A stretch of DNA of 49,080 nt from Deltaproteobacteria bacterium (GTDB lineage: Bacteria; Desulfobacterota; BSN033; UBA1163). The position numbers and the translations under genes were made by a program. Below, piece after piece: positions 32,907 to 36,238 of the stretch. The DNA lies in contig JAGXTA010000083.1 of NCBI GenBank assembly GCA_018333535.1, positions 1 through 49,080 on the forward strand. The letters are read 5' to 3'. The notes under the pieces were generated by a model. That model saw only the letters and a program-made list of their open reading frames with translations, did no database searches and was not told where the DNA came from. Every line of letters starts with the position of its first letter. The stretch's first letter is position 1.

Positions 32907-34808
32907 TCAAAGAACATCTTTGTTAATCTCGACCTTGGCTTTCGATCGTAGATGTTGGAGCCAATTCCTGAAGAACTCCTCCTGCTTCTGGTAGATCAGC
33001 CGTTTTTCAAGATTCTTCTTGACGGACTCAAACTTGCTCCGATCCGCGGGTTCCGAACTGAGAAGCCTCACCACAAAATATCCCTCTTTTGTCTTTAAGG
33101 CTTCTTTCGGAAGAGGTCGTTTCTCAGTCAGGGAAGACAGAGAGGCCATCCATTCTCCCGTGGGTCCGATTTTGGGGATTACACCTCCTGCCCGGCTGAA
33201 GAAACCCGTTTCCTCGATCGAATAACTTTTTCCCGAAATAACCTTGTTCATCTCTTTCCCGGCTTTGATCTGATTGAGAATCTCTTCCGCTGTCTGTCGG
33301 GCCTTCTCTTCGGTCTTCTTTCCAGCGACCTTCCGGATGACCTCCTCTTTTACCTCCTCCAGAGGAGGAACCCGGGATTCTTTTTTGTCCAGCAATTTCA
33401 GGATGTAAAAATTGGGCGGGATATTGACCACAGGAGAGATCTCCCCTATTTTTAGCGAAAAAGCGCTGGAGTGGAAAGAAGGGTCTTTGCCGATTCCAGG
33501 GATATCGTCGCCTTCCTTGAAGAAACCGGTTGTCTTTATCGGAAGGTCCTTCTCGCGAGCAAACTTCTCTATGTCCCTGCTACGGAAGAGGGAATAAAAC
33601 GCATCATCTGCTTTCCGGGAGGCTTCTGCCTTTGCCTTCTCTTTTTTGAATGTCTGATGGATCTGGTCTTTTACTTCTTCGAAGGTCTTTTGTTTCTCCT
33701 CTTTGACCTCTTCCACTTTGAAGATATGGAATCCACCCGGACCTTTGACCAGGTCGCTCAGTTCGCCCGCCTTGAGCGAGAAGAGAGGTTTCTCAAAGAA
33801 TTCATTGATCGTTCCCTTCTGGAGCCATCCCAGGTCTCCTCCCTTCTGAGCGGATTCCGATTCGGAATATTGTTTGGCAAGAGAAGCGAAGTCCTTTGTC
33901 TTCCCGGCCTTTCCAAGTATCTCTTCAGCCTTCTTCTTCTTTTCCTCAATTCTTTCAGGCGGGGCCTGTGGATCCACTGTAATGAGGATCTCCCTAACCC
34001 TGACCTGCTTGGGAACCTTAAAGCTTTCTTTGCGCTGATCGTAATAGCGCTTGATTTCATCAGGAGAAATCTGGATTTTGAGCTCAACATCAGAAGGACG
34101 GAAGGCAAGATATTGGACCTGGAGGTAGGCGGGAATCCTGAACTCCTCCTGATGCTTCTGAAAATAGTCCTTGATCTCCACCTCGTTCGCGCTCACCTGG
34201 CCCCTGAAGGCCTCAGGAGCGATCTTCACAAAATGGAGATTGACCTTTTCGTTTTCAAAGAGATAGCCCTCCAGAATCTCTTCCTCCGACACCTTTCCTC
34301 CATTGAGCCGGATGAGGTTGGCCACCTTTGAATAGAGGAGGTTTTCCCTCTGCATCCGCTCAAAATCTTCCGGATTCATCCGGTTGAGGCTTAGGAATCT
34401 TTCATAGAGGCGTGAATCGAATTGACCATTGACCTGAAAGGAGGGGATCGATTCGATGGCCATTCTCAATTCCCCATCCGAGACCTTCAGGCCCAATCTC
34501 GTTCCTTCCTGGAGAATAAGGGTCCTGGAGATAAGCTCTTCAATGACATTCTCTCTGATGCGGAGCTCCCCGATCATCTTCTCATTGAAGGCAGGGCCCA
34601 TCGCCTCCCGGTAGCGGTTCATCACTCCCTGAAGGGTTTCCTGGTAATCCCTGATGTGGATGGCGGTTCCGTCCACCATTGCCGCATAGTCGTATTTTTT
34701 GTCCCGGAAGAAGGAATATCCTCCCCAGGAAATAAACGTCACTGCCACCAGGAGGAGAAGACCCTTGAGCATCCAGGAAGTGGCATGTTTTCTTAAGATC
34801 GTTAACAT
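32907..34808 (-). CDS. ppiD: PpiD-like periplasmic peptidyl-prolyl isomerase/chaperone
   Basis: This is a 633-residue protein anchored by one N-terminal membrane segment (about 12-33, LKGLLLLVAVTFISWGGYSF). A SurA/PpiD-type chaperone region follows. A parvulin rotamase domain at about 265-365 has VRVREILITV, SESESAQKGGDLGW and GPGGFHIFKVEEV. A second, degenerate parvulin-like part lies near 430-480. It should assist folding of outer-membrane and exported proteins. AGGAG precedes the ATG. It is divergent from mreB, with a 392-nt intergenic region that carries a mobile element. Confidence 0.9.
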   Translation of the reverse strand: MLTILRKHATSWMLKGLLLLVAVTFISWGGYSFFRDKKYDYAAMVDGTAIHIRDYQETLQGVMNRYREAMGPAFNEKMIGELRIRENVIEELISRTLILQEGTRLGLKVSDGELRMAIESIPSFQVNGQFDSRLYERFLSLNRMNPEDFERMQRENLLYSKVANLIRLNGGKVSEEEILEGYLFENEKVNLHFVKIAPEAFRGQVSANEVEIKDYFQKHQEEFRIPAYLQVQYLAFRPSDVELKIQISPDEIKRYYDQRKESFKVPKQVRVREILITVDPQAPPERIEEKKKKAEEILGKAGKTKDFASLAKQYSESESAQKGGDLGWLQKGTINEFFEKPLFSLKAGELSDLVKGPGGFHIFKVEEVKEEKQKTFEEVKDQIHQTFKKEKAKAEASRKADDAFYSLFRSRDIEKFAREKDLPIKTTGFFKEGDDIPGIGKDPSFHSSAFSLKIGEISPVVNIPPNFYILKLLDKKESRVPPLEEVKEEVIRKVAGKKTEEKARQTAEEILNQIKAGKEMNKVISGKSYSIEETGFFSRAGGVIPKIGPTGEWMASLSSLTEKRPLPKEALKTKEGYFVVRLLSSEPADRSKFESVKKNLEKRLIYQKQEEFFRNWLQHLRSKAKVEINKDVL

Positions 34809-34832: not shown

Positions 34833-34861
34833 ATATTAATCAATCCTCCTGAAAAAGACAA
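34833..34861 (-). promoter_or_regulatory. probable promoter of ppiD
   Basis: On the minus strand TTGTCT (34861-34856), a 17-nt spacer and TAATAT (34838-34833) match sigma-70 boxes at four of six bases each. The start of transcription would be about 20 nt before the gene. The mobile element at 34880 lies immediately upstream of the -35 box. Confidence 0.45.
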
Positions 34862-34879
34862 GGGCAATGAAGATTAGGA

Positions 34880-35119
34880 GTAATGCGTCACTGGAGCGTG
34901 GGTGAAATCCGTCAATCGGGCAGTCATGTCTCCGAAAATCTTATTAAGCGGATGGTTTATATTTTTAAGGGCAAAGGGAACATTGCCCATTGTGGAGTAG
35001 TCCTTGTCATGCGGGGTCATCCTTTTAGTTCACGGACAAGCTGATGTTTCCGCTATAAGATTTTTTCCAACATCCCTGCCCGATCGACGGTAAATTTCCA
35101 CGGAAGAGTGACGCATTAC
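34880..35119. mobile_element. 240-bp MITE with IS66-type ends and 8-bp target duplication
   Basis: The ends GTAATGCGTCAC (34880-34891) and GTGACGCATTAC (35108-35119) are perfect inverted repeats. Imperfect pairing continues for roughly 80 nt inward on each side. GATTAGGA flanks the element exactly on both sides (34872-34879 and 35120-35127). Termini beginning GTAA with an 8-bp target duplication are the signature of the IS66 family. No transposase is encoded, so it is non-autonomous. It sits between the divergent ppiD and mreB promoters. Confidence 0.85.
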
Positions 35120-35138
35120 GATTAGGAGAGGAATTTTC

Positions 35139-36238
<1,100 letters not shown>

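Follow-up and report, generated by a model that had tools for sequence, protein, structure and literature searches.

Known targets of bacterial transposons are attachment sites, replication structures, terminators and repeats; to our knowledge, a set distance from a promoter is not a target mode of any IS. The yeast elements Ty1 and Ty3 integrate beside the start sites used by RNA polymerase III, sparing genes. Canonical IS66 elements are organised as tnpA-tnpB-tnpC, and a TnpC-only, ISBst12-like subgroup also exists. According to the available text on the IS66 family, the terminal repeats start with GTAAGCG and the insertions are flanked by 8-bp direct repeats (PMC11946415). MITEAba12, MITEPsy1 and Correia are presented, in the accessible parts of the reports, as small, non-autonomous elements with target duplications and with ends common to a co-resident IS; they carry outward promoters or are positioned near genes, and the target duplications of MITEAba12 showed no sequence trend (PMC6382973, PMC3189936, PMC10969869). 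Repeated insertion at one position was described for IS5 upstream of the E. coli glpFK operon, where, in the portion of the paper available, the target is CTAA and the locus-specific hotspot is linked to DNA destabilisation (PMC5493358). In the literature searched, in which subscription papers were mostly out of reach, no IS with a fixed promoter distance, no pairing of DruA with IS66 and no MITE like the one described below were found.

The 240-bp element and its copies

The window analysed in this work (the whole stretch of 49,080 nucleotides, contig JAGXTA010000083.1) belongs to an uncultured syntrophic bacterium whose genome is assembled in 192 contigs (4.39 Mb); every genome compared was a metagenome assembly. 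The window harbours a 240-bp element at 34880..35119 (+ strand in the orientation of alignment A1), with its right end toward mreB. The terminal inverted repeats begin with GTAA: GTAATGCGTCACT on the left (34880..34892, + strand) and AGTGACGCATTAC on the right (35107..35119, - strand). A target-site duplication, GATTAGGA, was read directly on both sides (34872..34879 and 35120..35127). The outer arms of the element (22 nt) were 82% complementary and the inner arms (36 nt) 78%; the left inner arm (34909..34944) carries a nearly invariant AAAATCTTAT block and the right one (35055..35090) a nearly invariant ATAAGATTTT block. An earlier note on this DNA had described GTAA ends, long inverted arms and exact 8-bp duplications; all of them were confirmed, with coordinates correct to the base. 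No ORF of 60 or more aa was found inside the element, so it has no transposase gene of its own. Because of the 8-bp duplication, the GTAA ends and a co-resident IS66-type element with matching ends (see below), its assignment as a putative non-autonomous MITE of the IS66 family, proposed in the earlier note, is supported. Rfam covariance models gave no match at gathering score (one sub-threshold match lay outside the element), and the element had no match in a plasmid collection. The suggestion that this MITE was uncatalogued also held in the database and literature searches made, in which no catalogued one turned up: it is a previously unrecorded member of the IS66-type MITEs.

The two neighbouring genes, named by recognition of their proteins, are presumably mreB (35201..36238, + strand, 345 aa) and a ppiD-like gene (32907..34808, - strand, 633 aa). 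The mreB promoter (-35 box TTGAAT, 35139..35144; -10 box TAATAT, 35162..35167; + strand) was conserved in congeners in both boxes; the ppiD promoter has the -35 box TTGTCT (34856..34861) and the -10 box TAATAT (34833..34838) on the - strand. A simple promoter scan was blank throughout, mreB included, the mreB boxes having 8 of 12 consensus matches and the scan a threshold of 9. The MITE lies between and outside both promoters, as previously noted: its left end is 18 bp from the ppiD -35 box and its right end exactly 19 bp from the mreB -35 box, these 19 bp being made up of the 8-bp duplication and 11 further bp.

Relatives of mreB were present in 17 of 17 genomes of the taxonomic family, with the full protein 90-100% identical in 15, and both promoters were conserved within the genus. 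The distance between the two -35 boxes was 277 bp in the window versus 27, 32 and 57 bp in the congeners G009, G008 and G005, which correspond to the empty site that had been proposed as a check: short gaps with both promoters kept. The gap of G004, G006 and G001 contained other sequence. That of G007 was occupied by a 165-bp element with IS66-type ends (GTAATCCC ... GGGGTTAC), located at the identical nucleotide as the window MITE and flanked by GATTAGGA on the right and AATTATGA on the left (G007 and window flanks 91% identical); this element showed no similarity to the window MITE (score 14; mean 16.8 for shuffled interiors). A third such element, in G014 (another genus), ended exactly 19 bp before the mreB -35 box and had no visible duplication, and yet another, in G015, with the exact duplication TCTCGAAA, was located further upstream and without the 19-bp spacing. 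In G003 and the genomes from other genera, a ppiD promoter beside mreB was not seen in the sequence read. As to the recent insertion that had been claimed, the MITE arrived since the split from the sampled congeners, whose gap is empty or otherwise filled. The same sequence with the same flanks, which would speak against an insertion, was looked for in relatives and not found; their gap was empty or had other content.

The copy search proposed in the earlier note, in the genome and its relatives, demonstrated a repeated sequence: two further near-complete copies (84% and 78% identity) plus fragments in the same genome and more copies in relatives, with matches in 11 of 99 genomes (its own counted), all of one taxonomic family. 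Scanning 84,980 species genomes with the core pattern CCGCTATAAGATTTTNTCC gave 26 stretches, 24 of them in records titled Syntrophaceae, Deltaproteobacteria or Thermodesulfobacteriota; the matches in Verrucomicrobia (L117) and Lentisphaeria (L137), where the arms were absent, were taken as chance. Genome G006 had 13 exact core matches, several at contig ends, as expected from a recent burst. Exact 8-bp duplications were present at 6 of the 18 copies inspected (window, L002, L003, L041, L042 and L044), judged by eye and allowing for mutated end bases. The copies were mostly intergenic and dispersed at many unrelated loci. An old conserved regulatory region, rather than an insertion, would account for the conservation of the core among copies, but not for the expanded gap between conserved promoters, the number of unrelated loci or the absence of the element from this locus in most congeners; its probability is close to nil.

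Some observations concern individual copies. Core-bearing copies were located just upstream of apparent coaBC genes (presumably so, by recognition) in two species of one genus (L060 in G012 and L065 in G015), and some insertions therefore seem to have been long retained. The copies L118 (G006) and L045 (G003) apparently occupy one locus, beside a GTGTGAAAAAATCACATTT palindrome, in opposite orientations. L056, L057, L062, L065, L222-L228, L230 and L231 (G015, G016) showed the same hairpin core with other terminal repeats (GTAACCCCTCAGT/GTAAGCCCTCAG types), and look as if different transposases had carried one core.

Folding of the MITE as single-stranded RNA gave one long interrupted hairpin, with -100.3 kcal/mol for the + strand and -99.4 kcal/mol for the - strand (z of -7.9 and -11.0; 0 of 200 shuffles equal on either strand). 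The earlier note had proposed that this palindrome, as a cruciform or RNA hairpin, might alter the expression of ppiD and mreB. The inner AAAATCTTAT and ATAAGATTTT blocks were almost invariant in 18 aligned copies with a mean column identity of 75%. The 48-pair structure was paired in 89.7% of cells, versus 38-47% in slid versions, and 14 pairs were changed on both sides, versus 7.9 in shuffles. Across subfamilies, 790 of 870 cells paired (whole-arm permutation maximum, 86.1%), and parsimony on a loop-built tree yielded 20 double-change events. This set comprised 30 of 34 copies: L221, whose right arm is broken by a palindrome, was dropped, as were L223, L225 and L005, for which the fuzzy search gave no left arm. 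Judged from the sequences, the arm pairing is maintained during evolution, by selection or by template switching within the palindrome. A.C mismatches (45 cells) were more frequent than G.T mismatches (17 cells), and in all 30 copies the arms were more stable when folded as RNA of the minus strand; this is only a hint because the copies share descent. Short G+C-rich palindromes were also present inside the MITE arms in G006 (L217, L219, L220 and L221), at the same points in several copies (e.g. CCCTGCCTTCGCCGAAGCGGCTACGCGCAGGCAGG, and GTCGATAAGACCCGACCACGGG in the left arm), and look like a second, smaller repeat family targeting hairpins.

Distance between the insertions and the promoter

Right ends of the MITE copies from all collected loci (49 distinct by the first 30 bases beyond the end) were analysed with promoter matrices entered by hand and with a matrix-free count of hexamers that have TTG and agree with TTGACA in 4 or more of 6 positions; the latter is independent of the matrices. 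The best-scoring promoter site began exactly 19 bp out at 15 of the 49 ends (13 of 33 for best sites scoring 7 or more), and composition-shuffled right flanks had a mean of 0.6 best sites at 18-20 (maximum 3). The hexamer count also gave 15 of 49 at 19; offsets 18 and 20 had 0 and 2, and the others averaged 0.93. The fuzzy match put a few right ends in the wrong place (7 bases off in L064, for instance); these were kept as found, which works against the peak at 19. Counting against targeting, 34 of the 49 right ends lacked a hexamer at 19, and the left ends, several of them poorly matched and also kept, had it at 19 in 3 of 34, not above rotations.

The same spacing was observed for autonomous insertion sequences. 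In the co-resident element (see below) the hexamer count gave it at 5 of the 12 ends and the matrix at 6 of them, corresponding to 6 of 7 insertions and to either end; the C42/C172 copy was the one without it. Among related elements (G297, G040, G236, G121, two in G392, G001 and G006) it was present at 6 of 15 ends, also in relatives from other families, and absent in G040, one of the two G392 copies and the C85 end of G006. The C463 end of G001 and the C96 and C85 ends of G006 were added to these 15 ends after their flanks had been inspected, and the G121 right end was shifted by 1 base to agree with the duplication there. The set did not contain the right end of the G001 element, which has no promoter at 19. 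The MITE right ends and both IS groups exceeded all 5000 rotations at 19. As controls, a class 2 IS66 element of the same genome (its left end, GTAACACTTTAG, has a DruA-like start, and the opposite end PF03050) had 0 of 25 ends at 19, and two IS66 elements that are more distant and have clear ends had 0 of 4. A 103-bp MITE of G013 with ends of the same kind and another core (L175:2725-2828 and L176:2428-2530) had the exact duplication GAAGTAGG and a weak TTTATT at 19 in one copy and TTGACA at 19 in the other; a 288-bp MITE in C42 had no promoter box at 19. The nearness of the MITE to the -35 box is not chance, and the fixed distance is a recurrent property of this element group, which the earlier note had missed.

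These data also bear on whether targeting is needed at all. Insertions might fall anywhere, with selection leaving those that spare genes and promoters; the copies are indeed mostly intergenic, and an insertion inside mreB or ppiD would probably be deleterious. Selection, however, would produce broad distances rather than a peak one base wide, another IS66 element exposed to the same selection in the same genome lacked the spacing at every end, and two unrelated elements occupy the identical nucleotide in the window and in G007. Selection without targeting is consequently very improbable.

The -35-like hexamers at 19 belonged to whole promoters: 27 of 29 such ends scored as complete promoters, versus 208 of 2292 background hexamers (9%), and the -10 part had a mean of 3.7 bits, versus -1.0 in the background and 0.1 where a hexamer of this kind stood elsewhere in these flanks. 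When 76 flanks were pooled, the most frequent letters of columns 19-24 gave TTGACA, columns 12-17 were T-rich and an A/T peak appeared around 42-47. The promoters that follow the 19-bp sites were of the sigma70 type; if the spacer is 17 bp, the octamer that is duplicated (offsets 0-7) falls at about -54 to -47, where upstream DNA is within reach of the RNA polymerase alpha C-terminal domain.

The MITE might also have been retained for a regulatory role, with the hairpin or the right end acting on the downstream promoter and selection having fixed distance and orientation. The maintained arm pairing agrees with such a role, as does the right-hand gene, which reads away from the element in 22 of 27 copies with called neighbours (simple ORF calling, orthologous sites included). 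However, the related IS loci were without these arms (weak near-matches in 3 of 23 loci), which means that the spacing does not depend on them; autonomous elements lacking the arms share it at either end, and different MITE cores are found at the same position. We consider retention as a regulatory part quite unlikely.

The putative mobiliser and its proposed landing mark

Several contigs of the same genome end inside a repeated element with MITE-like ends (5 DruA-side and 7 TnpC-side ends). Both ends start with GTAATGCGTCACT, and the DruA-side end matched the left end of the MITE over 27 bp (93%). Five end pairs, paired by eye, had identical 8-bp flanks (C150/C52, C74/C25, C42/C172, C33/C154 and C79/C56). 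The DruA-side ORF was 53% identical over 60 residues to the DruA of the G297 element, which encodes DruA (PF14236, 9.3e-33) and then an IS66 transposase (PF03050, 1.6e-39). At the TnpC-side end, 41 residues aligned to the C-terminus of the G297 transposase (score 78, reached by none of 2000 shuffles); this homology was established by Smith-Waterman score and shuffles, BLASTP of the peptide giving nothing. The 67-aa DruA-side peptide alone had no family in Pfam, NCBIfam or PADLOC. The plasmid collection had no match to this peptide or to the G297 TnpC and only 3 matches, at E 4, to the TnpC-side peptide, and the TnpC alignment gave 51 pattern matches in viral_contigs, 0 of them confirmed. The earlier note had recommended a search for a full IS66 element with matching ends: matching DruA and TnpC ends were found in the genome, the full element was not, since its interior is absent from the assembly and the transposase is known from the two ends alone. 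For this reason, the evidence that the co-resident element is a putative IS66-type element with DruA and TnpC is strong but indirect.

For the class 2 IS66-type element, 13 or more right ends coincided with contig ends (L100-L112), and together with other IS elements it accounts for many assembly breaks. In G001, a DruA domain was fused to a Tn5/IS4-type transposase (L095:2331-4658, 775 aa; PF14236, PF14706 and PF02281), and starts similar to this fusion were present in the window's own genome at several contig ends (L088, L090-L094); DruA-like domains thus accompany two unrelated transposase families.

The composition of the related elements points to the protein that may set the spacing. The G121 and G392 elements (1.6 kb) contain TnpC alone, those of G040 and G236 contain TnpC plus a small ORF, and the G297 element contains DruA plus TnpC; neither tnpA nor tnpB was found in the related elements read. 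The TnpC proteins of this clade were 49-55% identical to that of G297, and the spacing was present in G121, one of the two G392 copies, G236 and G297. DruA was rejected as the targeting factor and the TnpC of this clade was considered the likely determinant of the spacing, because elements with TnpC only keep the spacing and class 2, with its DruA-like start, lacks it.

Our reading, with a probability of about 80%, is that the MITE is moved by the TnpC of the co-resident DruA+TnpC element and that this clade inserts preferentially at a fixed place upstream of promoters. TnpC would be supplied in trans by the multi-copy element of the same genome and the 8-bp staggered target would be placed at about -54 to -47 of a promoter; 11 bp of native DNA would remain between the duplicated octamer and the -35 box, and the promoter would survive. 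The support, drawn from sequence comparison, comprises the insertion, its duplication, the matching ends, the empty or otherwise filled gap of the relatives, the 19-bp spacing and its absence in class 2; the proposed target choice appears well supported by position statistics and internal controls.

How the promoter would be found is a separate matter. TnpC may contact promoter-bound RNA polymerase, through the alpha C-terminal domain or sigma region 4, and we give an even chance to the proposal that this clade uses the poised sigma70 holoenzyme as a landing mark, cutting 8 bp apart around -54/-47. If so, IS and MITE insertions would accumulate at promoters and leave them intact, and one and the same nucleotide would be reached independently by different elements. 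Alternatively, the transposase could read the DNA sequence or shape of the -35 region directly (a T-rich stretch, then TTGACA), without RNA polymerase. The T-rich columns 12-17 and the TTGACA at 19-24 of the pooled flanks are what such a reader would leave, but the -10 box, for which a -35 reader has no need, was enriched as well (27 of 29 versus 9%); this enrichment is indecisive, since true -35 boxes tend to be in promoters, and direct reading is a possible, if doubtful, explanation. Landing on the polymerase or otherwise, the data suggest that this element group finds promoters and so avoids breaking genes. A fixed promoter distance would explain the tolerance of such elements beside essential genes. 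In uncultured genomes each insertion would then mark a promoter, and promoter mapping could make use of a compact TnpC that finds such sites.

Comparison with described systems

The elements described here resemble the IS66 family in their TnpC (PF03050 plus a zf-IS66-like zinc finger), GTAA ends and 8-bp duplications. They differ from canonical members in being without tnpA and tnpB, TnpC being alone or accompanied by a small ORF or by DruA, and in their fixed promoter distance, which does not appear in the available descriptions of IS66. The window MITE, like MITEAba12, MITEPsy1 and Correia, is small and non-autonomous, with inverted ends that match an IS and a target duplication, but the accessible parts of the reports on those MITEs describe no set distance from a -35 box. 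IS5 at glpFK likewise inserts at one position upstream of a promoter; its available description differs in containing no general promoter distance. The yeast elements Ty1 and Ty3 are unrelated, and the case described here involves an IS66-type DDE transposase, bacterial sigma70-type promoters and a putative tether; what both have in common is a set position upstream of transcription starts, which was found here too, though not at every copy.
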